From: an uncultured Verrucomicrobiota bacterium
GTDB taxonomy: Bacteria; Verrucomicrobiota; Verrucomicrobiia; Opitutales; Opitutaceae
Length of the DNA stretch: 56,075 nucleotides
NCBI GenBank assembly: GCA_903960515.1
Contig: CAJCBL010000157.1
Span: 1-56,075 of the forward strand
Direction of reading: 5' to 3'
The notes beneath the pieces were generated by a model, which saw only the letters and a program-made list of their open reading frames with translations, did no database searches and was not told the origin of the DNA. The position numbers were made by a program, and so were the translations under genes. Below, in pieces: positions 2,328 to 51,068 of the stretch. Positions within the stretch are counted from its first letter, which is position 1. Every line of letters starts with the position of its first letter.

Positions 2328-3686
2328 TTACCCCACCGTGGGCTCCAGCTCGCCGTAGAGCACACTTGTCGTGGCCCGGGTGATCCGCACTGCCGCCAGC
2401 GCGCCGACGAGCTGCTCCGCACTGGGGAAATGGACCAGCCGGTTGCCCCGGGTGCGGCCCGTGAACTGCCGGCCCCGCTTGTCCGGGCCCTCCACGAGCA
2501 CCTCCTGCACTGTGCCCACCAGCGCCGCTGTGTGCCGGCGCGAGTTGCCCTCCAGCAGGCGCAACAGCTCCTGGTTGCGACGCTCCTTGGTCGCCTCGTC
2601 CACCTGGTCGCCCAGCTCCGCAGCAGGCGTGCCGGTGCGCACTGAATACTTGAAGACGTAGGCCATGTCGTAGTCGGCCTCGGCAAAGAGAGCGGCGGTC
2701 TGCGCGAAATCCTCCTCCGTCTCGCCGGGGAAGCCCACGATGACGTCGGTCGAGAAGCTCAGGCCCGGGTGCGCGGCCTTGAGTGCGGAGACGAGCTCAA
2801 GGTAGCGCTCCCGGGTGTAGGGTCGGTTCATCGCGCGCAGGATACGGTTGCTGCCCGACTGTACGGGCAGGTGCACCTGCTCGCACAGTTTCGGCAGTCT
2901 GGCGTAGGCGGCCACCAGGTCGTCCTTGAACCCACGCGGGTGGGGCGAGGTGAAACGGATCCGCTCGATGCCCTCCACTGCATGGACACGCTCCAAGAGT
3001 TGCACGAAGGGCGACACCCCGCCGGTGTGCTCGTAGTCGCGCCGGCCGTAGCTGGTCACGATCTGTCCCAGCAATGTCACCTCGCGCACGCCGCGGGCGG
3101 CCAGTTCGCGGCACTCGGCCACGATGTCGTCCATGGGGCGTGAGCGCTCGTCGCCGCGCGTCTTGGGCACGATGCAGAAGGCGCAATCCATGTTGCATCC
3201 CTGCTGGATGGAGACGAAGGCGGTGACCTGCTGGGGGCCGTCGAGCAGATGGTCGCGGATCGCGTTCTGCGAGCCGGCCTCCTCGGCCACGTCGATGATC
3301 GTCTCCGAGATTGGCACTCCGGCCTCGCGGGCGGCCCGCAGGTTGTCGAGGTAGTCGGGCACAGTGTGGAACTTCTGGGTGCCCACGATGAGGTCGAGAT
3401 CGGGCAGCCGGTCGAGCAGCTCCGCGCCGCGGTTTTGCGCCATGCAGCCGAGGATACCCAGGACGAACTCCGGGCGGCGCCGCTTGTGGACGACGAGGTT
3501 CTCGGCCTTGGCGATGGCCTTCTGCTCGGCGAGGTCGCGAACCGAGCAGGTATTGAGCAGGAGGATATCGCAGGCGTTCTCGTCGGCCACGATGCGGTAG
3601 CCGCGGGCGCGCAGCATCGCCGCGACGGCCTCGCTGTCGCGCTCGTTCATCTGGCAGCCGTAGGTCTTGAGGTGGACGCGGTTCAT
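2328..3686 (-). CDS. miaB: tRNA-2-methylthio-N6-dimethylallyladenosine synthase MiaB
   Basis: MiaB is a radical-SAM methylthiotransferase that converts i6A37 to ms2i6A37 in tRNAs reading UNN codons. The 452-residue protein has the N-terminal UPF0004 domain, with Cys residues in KTYGCQMN, LNTCSVRD and GCMAQ that hold the auxiliary 4Fe-4S cluster. The radical-SAM motif is CNMDCAFC (CX3CX2C, near residues 165-172), and a C-terminal TRAM domain includes RGNRLVHF. Length and motif order are typical. It lies 55 bp upstream of the membrane-protein and gmk genes on the same strand. Confidence 0.96.
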   Translation of the reverse strand: MNRVHLKTYGCQMNERDSEAVAAMLRARGYRIVADENACDILLLNTCSVRDLAEQKAIAKAENLVVHKRRRPEFVLGILGCMAQNRGAELLDRLPDLDLIVGTQKFHTVPDYLDNLRAAREAGVPISETIIDVAEEAGSQNAIRDHLLDGPQQVTAFVSIQQGCNMDCAFCIVPKTRGDERSRPMDDIVAECRELAARGVREVTLLGQIVTSYGRRDYEHTGGVSPFVQLLERVHAVEGIERIRFTSPHPRGFKDDLVAAYARLPKLCEQVHLPVQSGSNRILRAMNRPYTRERYLELVSALKAAHPGLSFSTDVIVGFPGETEEDFAQTAALFAEADYDMAYVFKYSVRTGTPAAELGDQVDEATKERRNQELLRLLEGNSRRHTAALVGTVQEVLVEGPDKRGRQFTGRTRGNRLVHFPSAEQLVGALAAVRITRATTSVLYGELEPTVG

Positions 3687-27144: not shown

Positions 27145-27756
27145 ATGCCTGCCGACCCCGCCCACGATCTAGCGCTGATGGCCCAAATGGTGGCCGGGAG
27201 CGATGCCGCGCTCGACCAGTTGATGGAGCGCTGGGAAGGGCCCCTGCGCAGCTTCGCGCATCGTTACCTCCAAAACGCCACCGATACCGACGATGTGGTC
27301 GAGGAAACCTTCGTACGCCTCTACCACAAGCGCGCCGACTTCATCCCAGGCTCCAATTTCCCGGCGTGGATCTTCACCATAGCCGTAAATCTCTGCCGGC
27401 ACCGTCTGCGCTGGCGCCGCCGGCATCCCTCGGAGTCGATCGACGGGGGCGAGGAGGAGGGCGGCGAGGGATCACTGGGCAGCCGGCTCGCCTGCGGGCG
27501 CGCAAACCCGGCGGTGGCCACCGAGGGCAACGAGAGAATCGAGGCGCTGCGCGCCGCGGTGTCCTCGCTGCCAGAGGACCATCGCAGCGTCATTCTCCTG
27601 CATTCCTACGAGGGCCTGAGCTATCGCGAGATCGCTGCGGTGGTGGGCTGCTCCGAGCGGGGGGTGGAGACGCGGCTGTATCGGGCCCGGCAGGCTCTGC
27701 GCGGCCTGCTCGCCCCGTTGATGTCCGCCGCCGGCCGCCCGCAGGCGGGCGTGTAG
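27145..27756 (+). CDS. ECF-type RNA polymerase sigma factor (CnrH-like)
   Basis: The 203-residue protein has region 2 (LRSFAHRYLQNATDTDDVVEE... with the DDVVEETFVRLY core near residue 45) and region 4 (LPEDHRSVILLHSYEGLSY then EIAAVVGCSERGVETRLYRARQAL, a helix-turn-helix near 160-185). There is no sigma region 3, as usual for the extracytoplasmic-function class. It follows the periplasmic sensor gene by 47 bp and completes a Y-X-H arrangement. Target promoters are unknown; no metal efflux gene is adjacent. Confidence 0.9.
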   Translation: MPADPAHDLALMAQMVAGSDAALDQLMERWEGPLRSFAHRYLQNATDTDDVVEETFVRLYHKRADFIPGSNFPAWIFTIAVNLCRHRLRWRRRHPSESIDGGEEEGGEGSLGSRLACGRANPAVATEGNERIEALRAAVSSLPEDHRSVILLHSYEGLSYREIAAVVGCSERGVETRLYRARQALRGLLAPLMSAAGRPQAGV

Positions 27757-44422: not shown

Positions 44423-44770
44423 GACTGAACGGTTACGACTACGGCGTAGTAGGCCGCGCTTCAGCAATCGCATGTCGAGTCCGTCGAGAAAGGGCTGTTC
44501 TTGGCTGGAGGTGGTTTGGGTCACGCCGGGAAAGGGGCAGCGGATGAGGGGAGCAGTTTGGAAGGCGGCGACGTTTGAGGCGCGGGATGGAGTCTGTGAT
44601 TTGTGCCGGTTTCGGAGTGCGAACGCCAGCTTTCGCGAGGTCTTCTTTCCGGGGCGAGGCATCTCGAAGGCGCCGCCGGTCGCAGGTGGTCTTCACCACG
44701 GCACAGCAGGACCTCGGGCCACTCGTCGTGGATGCGGCCGGTCCACTGCGCCCGGTAGATTCCCGTCCGG
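44423..44770. other. Region between the REP element and the arsR promoter, no gene called
   Basis: About 350 bp without a convincing gene. Frames on both strands are broken or Arg-rich. A minus-strand stretch near 44710-44790 reads YRAQWTGRIHDEW and could be a remnant of a PIN-domain gene, but it is too short to call. Confidence 0.35.
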
Positions 44771-44788
44771 TATTCTCCTTGCGGAATA
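44771..44788 (+). promoter_or_regulatory. Candidate ArsR operator
   Basis: TATTC and GAATA form an inverted repeat separated by 8 bp, 27 bases before the arsR ATG. ArsR proteins autoregulate through such dyads at their own promoter. Assigned by position and symmetry only. Confidence 0.4.
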
Positions 44789-44814
44789 TGCCTGGGGCGG
44801 CATGTTGCCGGGCC

Positions 44815-45180
44815 ATGGACCTCGTTCACATCTACGAATGCCTCTGCGACCGCACCCGCCTGCGGCTGCTGGCGCTGCTGGGCGGAGGGCCGCTGTGCGT
44901 ATGCCACCTGCAGGAGGTGCTGGGCGAGCCCCAGGTGAAGGTGTCCAAGCATCTCGCCTACCTGCGGGAGCGCGGCCTGGTCGAGGCCAGCCGGGAGGGC
45001 AACTGGATGGTGTATTCGCTGCCTGCGGCGCCACCGCGCGAACTGGCCGCCAATCTCGCCTGCCTGCGCGAATGCACCCCCGGCGACGTCGGCCTCTCCC
45101 GCGACCTGGCCAAGCTCTCCAAGCTCCGCGCCCGCCTCGCCGCGGGCACCGACGGTCCCTGCGGCGTTCGCTGTACCTGA
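44815..45180 (+). CDS. arsR: ArsR-family arsenic-responsive repressor
   Basis: The 121-residue winged-helix repressor has RTRLRLLALLGGGPLCVCHLQ (in parts), with the CVC motif in the first helix of the DNA-binding domain, the As(III) site type of classical ArsR. The recognition helix is VKVSKHLAYLRERGLV near residues 43-58. An extra Cys pair occurs at the end (CGVRC). It heads the ars operon, with arsC 9 bp downstream. The ATG at 44815 was chosen because the family begins at this point; the frame is open to 44575. Confidence 0.9.
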   Translation: MDLVHIYECLCDRTRLRLLALLGGGPLCVCHLQEVLGEPQVKVSKHLAYLRERGLVEASREGNWMVYSLPAAPPRELAANLACLRECTPGDVGLSRDLAKLSKLRARLAAGTDGPCGVRCT

Positions 45181-45189
45181 TTTTCCACC

Positions 45190-45645
45190 ATGAGCACCAC
45201 CAAGCCCACCGTACTCATCCTCTGCACCGGCAACTCGTGCCGTTCACACCTCGCCGAGGGCATCCTGCGCGCTGTCGCCGGGGATTTCCTTGATGTCCAG
45301 AGCGCCGGGTCCAAGCCCGCCGGCTATGTACACCCGCTCGCCGTCGTTGCGATGAGGGAGATCGGCATCGACCTCTCCGCGCACCGCTCCAAGTCGATGA
45401 CCGAGTTCATGAACCAGTCCGTGGAGACGGTCATCACCGTCTGCGGCAACGCCGACCAGGCCTGCCCGATCTTCCCCGGACAGGTGAACCGCCACCACTG
45501 GCCCTTCGAGGACCCCGCCCACGCCCCCGGCACCGACGAGGAGAAGCTCGCGGTGTTCCGCCGAGTGCGCGACGAGATCCGCCGCACCTTCACCGCCTAT
45601 GCCGACGGGCGGCGAGACCAACTCAAGACGGCAGCCAACCCCTAA
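45190..45645 (+). CDS. arsC: Thioredoxin-coupled arsenate reductase
   Basis: The 151-residue enzyme of the low-molecular-weight phosphatase fold reduces As(V) to As(III). The P-loop is CTGNSCRS (Cys12, Cys17). The redox Cys pair later in the chain is Cys85 and Cys92 in VITVCGNADQACPIFPG, and W109-type WPFEDPA follows. These mark the thioredoxin-dependent class rather than the glutaredoxin-dependent class. Second gene of the ars operon, 9 bp after arsR. Confidence 0.95.
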   Translation: MSTTKPTVLILCTGNSCRSHLAEGILRAVAGDFLDVQSAGSKPAGYVHPLAVVAMREIGIDLSAHRSKSMTEFMNQSVETVITVCGNADQACPIFPGQVNRHHWPFEDPAHAPGTDEEKLAVFRRVRDEIRRTFTAYADGRRDQLKTAANP

Positions 45646-45662: not shown

Positions 45663-46088
45663 ATGAATACACTCCAAGTCTACGATCCTCCCCTGTGTTG
45701 TTCTTCCGGCGTCTGCGGCCCGGAGGTCGATCCCGTGCTCGTGCGCTTCGCCGCCGATTTGCGCTGGCTCGCCGAGCAGGGCGTGCGTGTGGAGCGCTTC
45801 AACCTGGCGCAAACCCCCGGTGCGTTCGCCGATAACGCCACCGTCTGCGCGGCGCTCACCCAGAAGGGCGATACGGCGCTGCCTCTCCTGCTTGTCGACG
45901 GCAAGGTGGCCGCCAGCGGCGGCTACCCGACGCGCAGCGAGCTGGCCGGTCTGCTCGGCTTGCCCGCAGTATCCGCCGAGCGTTTCACTGCGGTGGCCAA
46001 GCCCGGCGCCCTCGCCCCGAAAGCGAGCGGCTGCTGCGGTGGAGCGGGCTCGGCGCCAGCGGCGCCGGGGTCCCGTTGCTGCGGGTAA
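45663..46088 (+). CDS. arsD: ArsD arsenic metallochaperone
   Basis: The 141-residue protein carries As(III) to ArsA. The N-terminal site is YDPPLCCSSGVCGPEVDP (Cys12, Cys13, Cys18), the three-Cys arsenite site of ArsD. LPLLLVDGKVAASGGYPTR belongs to the thioredoxin-like fold. The C-terminal tail has further Cys pairs (GCCGG, RCCG), as in long ArsD forms. The gene lies 17 bp after arsC and 18 bp before arsA, its functional partner. Confidence 0.95.
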   Translation: MNTLQVYDPPLCCSSGVCGPEVDPVLVRFAADLRWLAEQGVRVERFNLAQTPGAFADNATVCAALTQKGDTALPLLLVDGKVAASGGYPTRSELAGLLGLPAVSAERFTAVAKPGALAPKASGCCGGAGSAPAAPGSRCCG

Positions 46089-46106: not shown

Positions 46107-47912
46107 ATGACCACTCACCGCTCCGATTCGTTGGCGACCCTGTGCGCCGCCGCCACCCGCTTCCTGTTCTTCACCGGCAAGGGGGGTGTGGGGAAAACCT
46201 CGTTGGCCTGCGCGACGGCGATCGCCCTGGCCGACGCCGGGAAGCGAGTCCTGCTTGTGAGCACAGATCCCGCCTCGAACCTCGACGAGGTGCTCGGCGT
46301 GCGTCTCAGCAACCTGCCGACGCCGGTCCCCGGTGCGGCCGGGTTGCTGGCCCTGAACATCGATCCGGCGGCAGCGGCGCAGGCGTATCGCGATCGCATT
46401 GTCGGGCCCTACCGGGGCAAATTGCCCGACGCCATTCTGCGCGGCATGGAGGAGCAGTTGTCGGGGGCCTGCACGATGGAGATCGCGGCCTTCGACGAGT
46501 TTGCCCGGCTGCTGGGCGAGCCGGCGGCCACAGCGGATTTTGACCACGTGATCTTCGATACGGCGCCGACCGGGCACACGCTGCGGCTCATGACCCTGCC
46601 GACGGCCTGGAGCGGGTATCTGGCGGAAAACACCTCCGGCGCCTCCTGCCTCGGTCCGCTCGCCGGCCTGCAGAAGCAGCGGGCTATCTACTCCGCCTCG
46701 GTATCCGCCCTGGCCGACGGCTTGCGCACGACACTGGTGCTGGTGAGCCGACCACAGCCCGCCGCCCTCGCCGAAGCCGAGCGCACCAGCGGTGAGCTCG
46801 CCGCACTGGGCGTGAGCAACCAGCGCCTAATCCTCAACGGGGTGTTCCGGGCGGCCGGAGCCGACCCCCTCGCCCTGGCGCTGGAGCGGCGGGGCGCGAG
46901 CGCCTTGGCGACCAAACTCGACTTCCTCCAGCGCTTGGCGGTAGTTGAGGTGCCGTTGCGCGCCCACAACCTCCTCGGGCTCGCGGCGCTGCGTGGCCTC
47001 CTCGGCGGCGGCGAGCAGGCGGGGTGCGCCGCGGCGGGGGCCTCCGCCGAACTGCCGCCGCTGGAGACGCTGTCCGCACTAGTCGACGACTTGGAGCGGG
47101 CGGGCCCGGGGGTGATCATGACGATGGGCAAGGGCGGCGTGGGCAAGACCACCGTGGCCGCCGCCATCGCCACCGAGTTGGCGCGCCGCGGCCGTCCGGT
47201 GCATCTGAGCACGACCGACCCGGCCGCGCATGTGGCGGCGGCGGCCGGCGCGGCAGCGGGGATGCAAGTGAGCCGCATCGATCCGCAGGCGGAGACCAGG
47301 GCGTACGTTGACCAGGTTTTGGCGACGGCGGGGCAGGGGCTCGACGCCAGCGGGCGCGCACTGCTGGAGGAGGACTTGCGCTCGCCCTGCACCGAGGAGA
47401 TCGCGGTCTTCCGCGCCTTCGCCCGCATCGTGGCGCAGGGGCGCGACCGGTTTGTGGTCCTGGATACCGCCCCTACGGGCCATACCTTGCTGCTGCTGGA
47501 TGCCACCGAGGCCTACCACCGGGAGATCGCCCGCAAGGCCAGCAGCTTGCCCGAGGAGGTGCTCCAGCTCCTGTCCCGGCTTCGCGATCCACGTTTTACG
47601 CACGTTCTCATCGTCGCCCTCCCGGAGGCGACTCCCGTGCACGAGGCTGCCGCGTTGCAGGCCGACCTGCGCCGGGCGCAGATCGAACCCTTCGCCTGGG
47701 TGATCAACCAGAGCCTGGCCCGCAGCGAGACCAGCGATCCGCTGCTCCTGGCGCGGGGTGCGAGCGAAGGCCCGTATATCCAGGAAGTGGTCCGCGAACT
47801 GGCCGGGCGCGCCGCGATTGTGCCCTGGGTACCGGTGGAGCCGGTGGGATCTGTCGCGCTGCAGCAGCTCTTCCGGAGGGAGCCGAATCCAACACTCAAC
47901 TCTAGCTTGTGA
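46107..47912 (+). CDS. arsA: ArsA arsenite-stimulated ATPase, two-domain form
   Basis: The 601-residue cytoplasmic ATPase drives arsenite export by the membrane permease. Domain A1 has FTGKGGVGKTSLACATAIAL near residues 17-36 and the signature DTAPTGHTLRLM near 152. Domain A2 has TMGKGGVGKTTVAAAIATEL near 340-359 and DTAPTGHTLLLLD near 455. Cys residues in SGACTMEI (near 121) and RSPCTEEI (near 429) match the metalloid-binding Cys positions. The duplicated form is full length. Confidence 0.96.
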   Translation: MTTHRSDSLATLCAAATRFLFFTGKGGVGKTSLACATAIALADAGKRVLLVSTDPASNLDEVLGVRLSNLPTPVPGAAGLLALNIDPAAAAQAYRDRIVGPYRGKLPDAILRGMEEQLSGACTMEIAAFDEFARLLGEPAATADFDHVIFDTAPTGHTLRLMTLPTAWSGYLAENTSGASCLGPLAGLQKQRAIYSASVSALADGLRTTLVLVSRPQPAALAEAERTSGELAALGVSNQRLILNGVFRAAGADPLALALERRGASALATKLDFLQRLAVVEVPLRAHNLLGLAALRGLLGGGEQAGCAAAGASAELPPLETLSALVDDLERAGPGVIMTMGKGGVGKTTVAAAIATELARRGRPVHLSTTDPAAHVAAAAGAAAGMQVSRIDPQAETRAYVDQVLATAGQGLDASGRALLEEDLRSPCTEEIAVFRAFARIVAQGRDRFVVLDTAPTGHTLLLLDATEAYHREIARKASSLPEEVLQLLSRLRDPRFTHVLIVALPEATPVHEAAALQADLRRAQIEPFAWVINQSLARSETSDPLLLARGASEGPYIQEVVRELAGRAAIVPWVPVEPVGSVALQQLFRREPNPTLNSSL

Positions 47913-47925
47913 CCCGTTTCCAACC

Positions 47926-49002
47926 ATGAACTCCGTCTCTCCCAAACGCCTCGATTTCTTCGAACGCTACCTCTCGCTCTGGGTGCTCGCCTGCATGGTG
48001 GCGGGCGTGGCGCTCGGCCGGCTGCTGCCGGGGATCACCGGCACGCTCAGCGGCTGGGAGTTTGGCACCGCTTCGCACGTCAACATCCCCATCGCCGTAC
48101 TCATTTGGCTGATGATCTACCCGATGATGCTCAAGATCGACTTCGGCGGGCTGAGGGGCGTGGTGCGGCGCCCGAAGGGCCTCGCCATCACCCTCGTGGT
48201 CAACTGGCTGGTCAAGCCCTTCGGCATGGCGCTGCTGGGCTGGTTCTTTGTGCGCTACCTCTTTGGAGACGTGCTTGGCTGGATCACGCCCGAGGCGGCG
48301 CGCGACTACTCGGCCGGCCTCATCATCCTCGCCGCCGCGCCGTGCACCGCGATGGTCTTTGTCTGGAGCTACCTCACCGACGGCGACCCGGCCTACACGC
48401 TCGCGCAGGTGGCGATCAACGACCTGATCATGCTGCTGCTCTTCGCGCCCATCGTGATGTTCCTCGTGGGCGTGAGTGGCGTGGCAGTACCGCGCGAGGT
48501 GCTGTTCACCTCGGTGGTCGTCTTCATCGTGGTCCCTCTCGCCGCCGGCTGGGCGAGCCGCACCGCCCTCATCCGCACCCGCGGGCGGGAGTGGTTCGAG
48601 ACGCGCTTTCTGGCCCTGTTCAAGCCGGTAACCATCTTCGCACTCCTCGCCACGCTCGTGCTCATCTTCGCCTTCCAGGCGGAAAACCTTCAGCGCAACT
48701 GGGTCGCCGTGCTCCTGATCGCCGTGCCTATCCTCATTCAGGTGTATTTCAACTCCGGGCTCACCTACCTGCTCATGCGGGCCTTCCGCGTGCCGCACAA
48801 TGTCGCCTCTCCCGGTGCGCTCATCGGCGCGAGCAACTTCTTCGAGCTGGCGGTGGCGGTGGCGATCACCCTCTACGGCCCCACCTCCGGCGCCGCGCTG
48901 GCGACAATCGTAGGCGTGCTCGTGGAGGTGCCGGTGATGCTCTCCGTATGCAAAGTCTGCAACTCCACCCGCGGCTGGTACGAGCGCAGCGCCGCCTCCT
49001 AA
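47926..49002 (+). CDS. acr3: Acr3-family arsenite efflux permease
   Basis: The 358-residue protein has about ten membrane segments and the Acr3 hallmarks: WLMIYPMMLKIDFGGL, NWLVKPFGMALLGWFF and ILAAAPCTAMVFVWSYLTDG with the essential Cys of segment 4, then GASNFFELAVAVAITLYG near residue 303. It exports As(OH)3/arsenite. It is fused to the operon by a 13-bp gap after arsA. Acr3 usually works alone; ArsA presence suggests ATP-coupled export. Confidence 0.95.
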   Translation: MNSVSPKRLDFFERYLSLWVLACMVAGVALGRLLPGITGTLSGWEFGTASHVNIPIAVLIWLMIYPMMLKIDFGGLRGVVRRPKGLAITLVVNWLVKPFGMALLGWFFVRYLFGDVLGWITPEAARDYSAGLIILAAAPCTAMVFVWSYLTDGDPAYTLAQVAINDLIMLLLFAPIVMFLVGVSGVAVPREVLFTSVVVFIVVPLAAGWASRTALIRTRGREWFETRFLALFKPVTIFALLATLVLIFAFQAENLQRNWVAVLLIAVPILIQVYFNSGLTYLLMRAFRVPHNVASPGALIGASNFFELAVAVAITLYGPTSGAALATIVGVLVEVPVMLSVCKVCNSTRGWYERSAAS

Positions 49003-49004
49003 AA

Positions 49005-50132
49005 ATGGAAACGCCGCCTCCGCAGCGCGCCCCGTGGCCGGGCGCCTCACCGCAGGCGGGCGTTTTATTCGCCCCGGCTGAGCTCTATGTAGCGCACCGC
49101 GAGCGGGTGCGCCGCTCCCTGGTGCGGTTGGTGGGCGAGGCGGAGGCCGACGACCTCGTGCAGGAGGTGTTTGTACGCGTAACGCGGGCACTGCCGGAGT
49201 TCCGCGGCGAGGCGGGCGTGACAACGTGGATAGCGCGCATCGCCCGCAGTGTAGGCCTCGACCACCTGCGCAGCCGCCGCCACCACGAGGCGCAGCGCAC
49301 GGTGTCGCTTGCCGCGCCCACCTCCGCCGGCGGTGAATCCAGTGCGAGCGGCCCCGCAGCCGTGCCCGAGCCGCAAGAGGAGGCGCAGGCCCCGGGGCGC
49401 TTGGTGCGCTCGGAGATGGGCAACTGTGTCCGGGAATATGTGGCGCGCCTTTCCCCGGACCATCGCGCGGTGATCGAGCTCAAGGACCTCGATGGACACT
49501 CAAATACCGAGATCGCCGCGCGCTTGGGCGTGAGCGTGGACAACGCAAAGATCCGCCTGCACCGCGCCCGCCAGGCGCTGCGGCGCGAACTGGAGCGGGG
49601 CTGCGATTTCTACCACAACGAGGAGAACACCCTCGCGTGCGACCGGAAGATTCCGGCAGCAGCCGCCGCTTTGTCCGTATCTTCCGCAGCGGCGTTCTCG
49701 TCCAAGAAGGTGAGACCGATTGCCAGCGCACGACGCGCGAAGGCCGCCGGTTGCAACCAGACACCCGACACAGCAATGAACACCTCCTCCAACTGCGGCT
49801 GCAACGCCGCTTCCGCACCCTCCGCCTGCGCCGCACCTGCGGCGCCCAGCCTCTTCACCCCGATCGCGGCCGAGTTTGTCGCCCTGGGCGCGGCGATCGG
49901 CGCCAACTGCGAGCCCTGCCTGGCCTACCATGTGCGCGAGGCCGAGAAGCTCGGTATCTCCTCGGCCGATATCGCCAAGGCCGTGGCCTTCGCCGCGAAG
50001 GTGAAGGACACCCCGGCGCGCGCCATCCTTAAGCTCGCCGAGCGCCTCACCCAGGCCGGGGGTGAGAGCGCCACCTCAGCCTGCGCCACCTCGGCGCCCT
50101 CAGCAGCGGCCTCGCCGTGCTGCTCGGGTTGA
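49005..50132 (+). CDS. Fusion of an ECF sigma factor with a carboxymuconolactone-decarboxylase-like (CMD/AhpD) domain
   Basis: The 375-residue frame begins METPPPQR two bases after the acr3 stop. Residues 25-200 form an ECF sigma factor: EAEADDLVQEVFVRVTRALP (region 2), LSPDHRAVIELKDLDGHSNT and EIAARLGVSVDNAKIRLHRA (region 4), then a Cys tail CDFYHNEENTLACDRK. After a 40-residue linker comes a domain of about 90 residues with GAAIGANCEPCLAYHVREAE (CxxC, the CMD/AhpD active site), ISSADIAKAVAFAAKVKD and a Cys-rich end. No stop codon separates them. An internal ATG at 49776 could start the CMD part as a separate protein. Confidence 0.8.
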   Translation: METPPPQRAPWPGASPQAGVLFAPAELYVAHRERVRRSLVRLVGEAEADDLVQEVFVRVTRALPEFRGEAGVTTWIARIARSVGLDHLRSRRHHEAQRTVSLAAPTSAGGESSASGPAAVPEPQEEAQAPGRLVRSEMGNCVREYVARLSPDHRAVIELKDLDGHSNTEIAARLGVSVDNAKIRLHRARQALRRELERGCDFYHNEENTLACDRKIPAAAAALSVSSAAAFSSKKVRPIASARRAKAAGCNQTPDTAMNTSSNCGCNAASAPSACAAPAAPSLFTPIAAEFVALGAAIGANCEPCLAYHVREAEKLGISSADIAKAVAFAAKVKDTPARAILKLAERLTQAGGESATSACATSAPSAAASPCCSG

Positions 50133-50333
50133 GCGGCGAGGCGGAGAGCGCGGCACGGATCGAAGGAAGGCCGCGGCCGCGCGCCCCGGTCTGTGCAGGC
50201 CGGGTTGATCCTGCGGCGTCCGCATGCTTGCGCCGGGCGCCGCAGGCATGCGAGGGTCGCCGGCACCGATGCCTTCCCCAGTTGCCAACCGCCGGCGCAC
50301 CCTGCGCCTCCACCATTTCGCCCCGCGCCGCCC

Positions 50334-51068
50334 ATGAGCCGCGAGATGTGCTACCGCTGTTTCTGGACGAAGGATTTGTGCTGGTGCGGAAGCATCCGCC
50401 CGATGGCGACGCGCACGAAGGTCGTGCTGCTCATGCACCCCAAGGAGTACAAGGAGCAGCGCACGGGCACCGGCCGGCTCACCCACCTGTGCCTGGCCGA
50501 CAGCGAGCTGATCATGGGTATCGCCTTTGATGATCACGAGCGGGTGCAGGAGCTCATCCGCGATCCGGGCAACCTCGCGATGCTGCTCTATCCCGGGCTG
50601 GAGGCTCGCGTGCTGCCGGAGGGCCTGCCCGCACGGGAGCTGGGCTCGCGGCGGTTGGTGGTATTCGTTTTGGACGGCACCTGGTCATGTGCCCGCAAGA
50701 TGCTGCGGCTCAGCCCGAGCCTGCAACGGCTGCCGCGGCTGGTGTTTCCGCCGGCGGCGCCCAGCCGCTTTGTGATCAAGCAGCAGCCGGCCGAGGGGTG
50801 TCTGTGCACCCTGGAGGCGACCCACGAACTGCTCCTCGCGCTCGATCGCGCCGGGCTCGACCGCTATCCGGAACCGGAGCAATTGCCCGGCTTGCTCACA
50901 CGGATGCAGGATTATCTGATCAAGTGCGCGAGCGACCCGACCCGCTCCGGGTACCGGCGGCAGGCTTACGGGACGCCTGAGGTGCGCCGGGTGACGCGTG
51001 GCGCCGACAGCGCGCGGCCGATGAAGCTTTTCGCGGCGTCGCCGCCGGGTGGCGACGCGGTGAGCTGA
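50334..51068 (+). CDS. DTW-domain protein (TapT/TuaA-like tRNA aminocarboxypropyltransferase)
   Basis: The 244-residue protein has the N-terminal zinc site CYRCFWTKDLCWCG, LLMHPKEYKEQRTGTGRL with the substrate-loop Arg/Thr, and the family-defining DTW variant DGTWSCARKMLR near residue 117. LPRLVFPPAAPSRFVIKQQP follows. The family transfers the aminocarboxypropyl group of SAM to uridine in tRNA (acp3U). The position modified is not known for this protein. The start at 50334 was chosen because family members begin just before the zinc site. Confidence 0.85.
   Translation: MSREMCYRCFWTKDLCWCGSIRPMATRTKVVLLMHPKEYKEQRTGTGRLTHLCLADSELIMGIAFDDHERVQELIRDPGNLAMLLYPGLEARVLPEGLPARELGSRRLVVFVLDGTWSCARKMLRLSPSLQRLPRLVFPPAAPSRFVIKQQPAEGCLCTLEATHELLLALDRAGLDRYPEPEQLPGLLTRMQDYLIKCASDPTRSGYRRQAYGTPEVRRVTRGADSARPMKLFAASPPGGDAVS

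Follow-up and report, generated by a model that had tools for sequence, protein, structure and literature searches.

The window, the whole stretch of 56,075 nucleotides that was analysed, carries an arsenic operon on its forward strand in the order arsR-arsC-arsD-arsA-acr3, followed, as the last gene, by a single open frame that joins a sigma factor to a carboxymuconolactone decarboxylase (CMD)/AhpD-like domain. The operon begins with arsR (44575–45180, +), an ArsR/SmtB repressor gene of uncertain start codon; the portion scanned, 44632–45177, matched HTH_5 at 37.6 bits and NF033788 at 75.9 bits against 55. Next come arsC, a thioredoxin-type arsenate reductase (45190–45645, +; LMWPc 68 bits; TIGR02691 134.6 bits, below the cut-off of 174.3), the arsD metallochaperone (45663–46088, +; PF06953 142.3 bits; NF033727 120.2 against 90), the arsA ATPase (46107–47912, +; TIGR04291 784.5 bits against 650) and the arsenite efflux gene acr3 (47926–49002, +; TIGR00832 376.7 bits against 282.8). 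The ATG of the sigma factor lies 2 bases past the acr3 stop codon (49000–49002). A scan of 48900–50400 for sigma-70 promoters found none. The same interval holds three terminator-like sites, compared with 0.7 in shuffled sequences, including 49043–49058 (+), within the start of the sigma gene, and 49007–49028 (−), so that transcripts of the operon may be thinned before the sigma factor. A DTW-domain protein is encoded downstream of the operon (50334–51068; PF03942, 163 bits), and a second ECF-like sigma stretch (27274–27705, L006), 35% identical, has neither the Cys tail nor the promoter element described below.

The open frame 49005–50132 (+) contains no stop codon, and its conceptual translation is 375 residues long, with sigma factor, linker and CMD in one chain. 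Pfam placed Sigma70_r2 at residues 27–92, Sigma70_r4_2 at 141–192 and CMD at 288–344. The sigma part (49005–49601, +) consists of sigma2 and sigma4, with a conserved cysteine, C141, at the start of sigma4; both regions scored above cut-off and no region 1 or 3 family was matched in Pfam, which places it among the ECF (group 4) sigma factors, and it scored 97.9 bits against SigZ (TIGR02959), below the curated cut-off of 168.65. It closes in a Cys tail, CDFYHNEENTLACDRK (residues 200–215; 49602–49649, +), with the pattern C-X11-C (C200, C212) kept across phyla in the alignment. An open, in-frame linker (49650–49775, +) leads to a CMD/AhpD-like part of 118 residues (49776–50132, +), which has an in-frame start codon of its own, the ATG at 49776, and a CxxC active-site motif at 49908–49919 (C302-x2-C305, followed by H309). 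Taken alone (49776–50129), this part reached 30.1 bits against PF02627, above the gathering cut-off of 23, and thus belongs to the CMD family; it scored 26.9 bits against the AhpD core domain TIGR00778 (curated cut-off 27.8) and matched positions 287–333 of the 345 in NF041537, the ArsM-AhpD selenoprotein model, at 26 bits (cut-off 510). The sequence-only reading had placed a sigma factor ending in a Cys tail and a CxxC-bearing CMD domain together in one frame, last in an ars operon, and translation, Pfam and the operon profile matches confirmed it; the linker, estimated there at about 40 residues, measures 42 codons past CDRK. An AlphaFold model of the full chain, made with no alignment, was poor (mean pLDDT 50.9, pTM 0.27) and was not used.

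The same fusion had been suggested as something to look for in other genomes, and an in-frame join was found in five more. Among the 252 genomes of the family, the CMD part occurs in 16, the window's own included, and the join in one frame in the window's genome (G000), G028, G153, G173 and G027, the last with its CMD cut near a contig end. An order-wide search of 273 genomes added one join, in G897, which belongs to another family; the join is thus present in six genomes from two families of one order, the Opitutales. Besides the window, the joined loci are L048 (Opitutaceae bacterium nzgw611), L049 (Verrucomicrobia bacterium ADurb.Bin122), L050 (Verrucomicrobia bacterium WAS_Bin_16; CMD cut), L088 and L154 (G897). 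At E up to 1e-40, a search of 384 genomes sampled from across the class returned only the window's genome, G173 and G082. The sigma gene of G082 (L089) ends in TAA and its CMD is a separate gene, and G088 (L087) holds a sigma remnant that is cut at its 5′ side and ends in TAG. Farther away, the sigma factor was present at E up to 1e-40 in 23 of 230 genomes of the class of G253, a Nitrospirae genome (L052). A tblastn search of plasmid records gave only weak Rhizobium sigma matches (31 records), and no relative of the CMD was found in viral contigs.

A stop codon follows the sigma gene in 33 of the 34 unjoined loci (L124, which is masked, among them), and the remaining one, L122, is cut by a contig end; every readable unjoined locus (32/32) has the sigma stop. 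The arrangement that the sequence-only reading had named as counting against a single chain, two separate genes with a stop between them, therefore does exist among loci that lack the join, namely those of G082 and of Nitrospirota, and the six joined copies remain open throughout. For the tree, 46 loci were taken at the start and 43 were used after removal of L087 (the G088 remnant) and L096, both too short, and of L124. The five joined copies in this tree formed a group with support 98/87, beside G082. When G897 was added and the G088 remnant left out, support for the joined set was 77/13. The remnant itself grouped with joined G173 (99/98 in one tree, 92/82 in another), and with the remnant inside the joined set two changes are needed. 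A single origin of the join is possible, and the trees do not settle between one origin and more.

The linker was found to house a conserved DNA element, a feature that, like the in-frame ATG at 49776, the sequence-only reading had not pointed out. Within 350 nt past the Cys tail, 33 of the 39 loci of the Cys-tail sigma family carry a −35 box GTATCC/T followed by a −10 box CGTC, and the spacer was 16 bases in all 33, though 10–22 had been allowed; order-1 Markov shuffles gave an expectation of 0.0 elements over the same loci. The two boxes were named by position and by likeness to ECF promoters. Set aside from the 39 loci were same-place repeats (L090–L093, L096), L098 and L007 (no sigma match) and L154 (G897), which was found later. 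The six loci lacking the element are L053, L103, L116, L126, L122, a locus cut by a contig end, and L124, a masked one. Downstream of the sigma gene, the element was absent from all 14 of the other ECF loci compared, a set that includes 8 more distant relatives whose tails are similar. In four such distant ECFs with a similar C-X11-C tail (L057, L058, L060, L064), a CMD stretch lies just upstream of the sigma gene and no element lies downstream. In the window, the element occupies 49677–49702 (+), with GTATCT at 49677–49682, a 16-base spacer and CGTC at 49699–49702.

The position of the element relative to the genes is regular. In 28 of the 33 loci, a stop codon precedes it and a separate gene, often a CMD, follows (28 of the 34 unjoined loci, always after the sigma stop), and the other five are joined copies. 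In G082, it is in the intergenic space between the sigma TAA and the separate CMD gene; in G088, it follows the sigma TAG and precedes the start of a gene that looks DGC-like by eye. Within the class of G253, 21 loci have the element, and in 19 of them it lies 2–9 nt past the stop of the sigma gene; in five loci of Deltaproteobacteria type the distance from the stop is 93–98 nt (four) or 313 nt (one). The gene after the element was judged CMD-like by eye in 10 of those 21 loci (e.g. L105, L108, L112). Other genes following the sigma factor in this class encode a DGC protein (L052, by Pfam), a small membrane protein, which we take to carry the SHOCT label, or, in L107 and L123, products without an assigned family; the gene that follows in L051 encodes a rhodanese (Pfam).

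The joined copies keep the same element inside a coding frame. Read codon by codon, their linkers retain GTATCY, 16 bases and CGTC as blocks of DNA, and four of the nine linker residues that are invariant in the first four joined copies (V225-S226 and S233-K234) correspond to the codons of the two promoter boxes. The supposition that this stretch is a mere protein linker consequently gave way, since it contains the promoter element of the sigma family. A conserved AAGGAGGTGA follows CGTC; it was considered as a Shine-Dalgarno sequence or frameshift signal and set aside because relatives often have a TATAGG-like sequence at that place.

Copies of the element away from sigma genes were also sought. 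The pattern GTATCCTTTTN{11,13}CGTC gave eight matches in 7 genomes and none in the reversed control, and three of the eight lie away from sigma genes. Extra copies in L133 and L135 (G252, G253) stand before a small membrane-type protein and a cysteine-bearing protein, which are candidate regulon members. Across the 252 genomes of the family, GTATCYN{15,17}CGTCYAAGG gave 20 matches against 8 reversed controls; five of these fall at sigma-CMD loci, and the remaining 15 lack such a neighbour. These 15 look like chance, so that the matches do not establish a wider regulon in the family. In the window's own genome, a stricter pattern matched twice, the second time with a 15-base spacer, compared with 3 matches of the control.

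The layout recalls that of ECF41. In the sections of Wecke et al. (2012; PMC3426412) drawn on here, the ECF41 promoter before a CMD gene has a −35 of TGTCACA, a spacer of 16 (±1) and a −10 of CGTC, a single target gene or operon is detectable for the sigma factor, an anti-sigma gene is not obvious, and the CMD tested left sigma activity unchanged. Both systems thus have an ECF sigma gene adjoining a CMD gene, with n16 and CGTC before the latter (PMC3426412, same sections). This shared layout, a −35 box, 16 bases and CGTC before a CMD gene beside an ECF gene, led us to read 49677–49702 as the predicted target promoter of the sigma factor itself. In ECF41 the gene behind the promoter may be a CMD, an oxidoreductase or an epimerase; here it is a CMD in part of the loci. 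Unlike in ECF41, the −35 here is GTATCC/T; the regulatory, SnoaL-like C-terminal domain of that group is missing (none among Pfam matches up to E=1), and the window's sigma factor has a pattern of three cysteines and stands in the company of arsenic genes.

Only three columns of the family alignment are generally cysteine, C141 (36/36), C200 (36/36) and C212 (35/36, the miss being the cut locus L122); one further column has cysteine in 5/36. All seven more distant ECFs that were compared share the three. If a sensor is on board, these conserved sigma cysteines are likelier to provide it than the CMD, and C141, C200 and C212 could jointly bind As(III), for which a site of three cysteines would be suitable, or some other signal that binds thiols. 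Tail cysteines can act in this way in other ECF sigma factors, according to the parts of the sources used here: OrbS responds to iron starvation with C-terminal cysteines as an on-board iron sensor (PMC9023288), and CorE/CorE2 of ECF238 (formerly ECF44) are linked to metals (Cu/Cd/Zn) and have a CXC between sigma2 and sigma4 and a Cys-rich C-terminal domain (PMC8999054). By these descriptions, the present factor is like OrbS in its C-terminal cysteines and like CorE/CorE2 in having tail cysteines together with a cysteine near the join of sigma2 and sigma4. It differs from CorE/ECF238 in lacking the CXC between sigma2 and sigma4, in having only C-X11-C in the tail and in its arsenic company. 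The sigma factor of G082 (L089) has a CPC between sigma2 and sigma4 that recalls the CXC motif described for CorE.

The CMD part was regarded in the sequence-only reading as a built-in thiol sensor, with the Cys-rich stretches on either side of its core (NCGCN and CCSG) as a sign of this. Most of ten stand-alone CMDs end in GCGCS or alike, so that a Cys-rich C-terminus is no argument that the fusion is a sensor; none of the ten showed the N-terminal NCGCN. The CMD is moreover joined to other partners in the family. ArsD and CMD share one frame in L013, L014, L016, L017 and L018 (open frames of 205–222 residues; in L013, ArsD 139 bits and CMD 37 bits by Pfam), and an ArsM-like methyltransferase, ArsD and CMD share one in L015 (106–1746; confirmed by Pfam) and L019 (1–1806). 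These joins point to arsenic chemistry, not to control of a sigma factor, and with the conserved cysteines lying in the sigma factor itself, the assignment of the CMD as thiol sensor was not supported. NF041537 is similar in that an AhpD-like domain is joined to an arsenic-linked protein; the CMD here differs in having Cys, not Sec, and its partner is a sigma factor, not ArsM.

Gene company is consistent with a role for the CMD in arsenic or thiol redox chemistry. The sigma family often adjoins acr3/arsC/arsM and thioredoxin/CcdA genes, in several phyla. Relatives of Acr3, ArsC or ArsM, and of thioredoxin and/or CcdA, are close to the sigma gene in L048, L049 and L050, and in L049 a DGC-domain gene (3049–3492) follows the joined gene, as DGC also follows the sigma gene elsewhere. 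For the class of G253, 14 regions were picked from 26 loci, mainly on longer contigs; ars genes are close to the sigma gene in 9 of the 14, a proximity counted with no random-place control, and thioredoxin and/or CcdA relatives in six (L137, L140, L142, L143, L147, L148). L140 and L142 have the order acr3-trx-ccdA-sigma, then the promoter and a CMD (this last part as L114 and L117). In G173, a thioredoxin gene and a DsbD_TM (CcdA-like) gene lie directly upstream of the joined gene. No ars genes were found around the joined gene in G173 (13 kb) or G897 (10 kb), around the pair in G082 or in 5 of the 14 regions, and no thioredoxin/CcdA relatives in the window's last 16 kb or around the gene of G897. 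Overall, the company suggests that arsenic chemistry is supplied with thiol redox and that the CMD takes part in this, probably working with partners of the thioredoxin/CcdA type. Thioredoxin and CcdA genes are known in ars operons, as part of PMC2963123 describes, and their nearness to the present sigma gene, both among Opitutales and within the class of G253, resembles those operons; the words sigma and carboxymuconolactone are absent from the main text of that paper. Literature searches found no paper tying an ECF sigma factor, CMD and arsenic together and no description of an ECF sigma group tied to arsenic genes, and the portion of PMC8103513 consulted makes no mention of arsenic or CMD. 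The family appears to be a new ECF group whose wiring resembles that of ECF41, rather than a proven thiol-sensor fusion.

We consider it probable that an arsenic-linked ECF sigma factor drives its adjoining CMD gene and that, in one clade, the intervening stop is missing, so that a long chain arises besides a short CMD driven by the sigma factor. Under this model, the sigma factor would be made from the ars operon, would recognise GTATCT-N16-CGTC in the linker, as conservation of the element suggests, and would transcribe the CMD, which would be translated from its own ATG at 49776. This ATG is kept in all six joined copies; no clear Shine-Dalgarno sequence precedes it, nor does one precede the separate CMD gene of G082. 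In the Opitutales clade, the stop that ends the sigma gene before the predicted promoter in relatives is missing, and the frame runs through that promoter into the CMD. Two proteins would then come from one frame: a certain amount of long chain, made from the operon, and short CMD, made whenever the sigma factor is active. The sigma factor would most likely be controlled on board, through Cys141, Cys200 and Cys212, perhaps by As(III). The sequence-only reading as a whole holds in part: a sigma-CMD chain is expected, and the sigma family, often found beside arsenic genes, has conserved cysteines. The CMD is first of all the likely target gene of the sigma factor, and the sigma factor itself is the better sensor candidate.

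Whether the long chain has a role of its own is a narrower matter. The join could be a by-product, its stop lost by drift, in which case the long chain would be made without a role and the sigma factor and short CMD would work as in relatives. This is a serious possibility, and as it makes the same promoter claim and is a sub-case of the model above, the two are not exclusive. When the six linkers were shuffled at order 1, frame 0 stayed open in 45–69% of cases, and 0–2 stops are present in the two remaining forward frames; openness of the linker alone is weak evidence and not significant. The G088 remnant, which groups with joined G173, has a stop, which would indicate that the state can change; the copy is truncated, however, and its stop says little. 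The join is nevertheless more than chance, because it recurs in frame in six genomes and the changes in spacing are all multiples of 3. The distance from tail to promoter is 30, 18 or 15 nt in the six joined copies, and that from promoter to ATG is 73 or 76 nt. Such in-frame upkeep over two families, through about three whole-codon length changes, argues against drift, with a chance of about 1 in 100 by a rough, after-the-fact estimate, and lends modest support to upkeep of the long chain.

CMD proteins are oligomers, and a short CMD could therefore assemble with the CMD tethered to the sigma factor, restraining or tuning it. The gene would then be nested in itself: the promoter in the linker would fire the short CMD, which would bind the CMD of the fusion and close an As(III)-gated feedback. 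We regard this extension of the two-product model as rather doubtful.

Less likely still is a true single-chain regulator, in which the CMD would be the sensor domain, controlling the sigma factor by means of its CxxC, and nothing but the long chain would matter. All six joined copies keep an open frame whose length changes only in multiples of 3, and with no stop between sigma factor and CMD, the long chain must arise wherever the sigma gene is translated through. Other ECF groups carry regulatory C-terminal domains as well (parts of PMC3426412 and PMC8999054). Against such a regulator stand the sigma stop in every readable unjoined locus, the joins of CMD to ArsD and ArsM-ArsD, the unaltered activity of ECF41 with the CMD tested (PMC3426412, sections cited above) and the linker itself, which keeps the promoter boxes and in its promoter half otherwise varies like non-coding DNA. 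Indeed, variable sites at codon positions 1/2/3 in four copies number 11/9/11 in that half, a flat distribution, and 7/6/12 in the rest of the linker, which is slightly coding-like, compared with 43/28/111 in the sigma part (four copies) and 13/7/34 in the CMD core (three copies). An assembly or sequencing error that removed a stop or made a frameshift, conceivable in a draft genome of 379 contigs, is in practice refuted by the same join in five other assemblies, one of which, that of G173, consists of a single contig.

These results point to a group of ECF sigma factors that has a sharply defined predicted promoter and is linked, across several phyla, with arsenic genes. In the usual description of arsenic operons, it is ArsR-type repressors that govern them; with three conserved cysteines in the sigma factor, a direct As(III) switch is conceivable. 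A frame that looks like a fusion and whose linker carries a predicted promoter calls for caution in naming fusions from open frames, and a promoter-bearing linker of this kind may be a route by which fusions arise.
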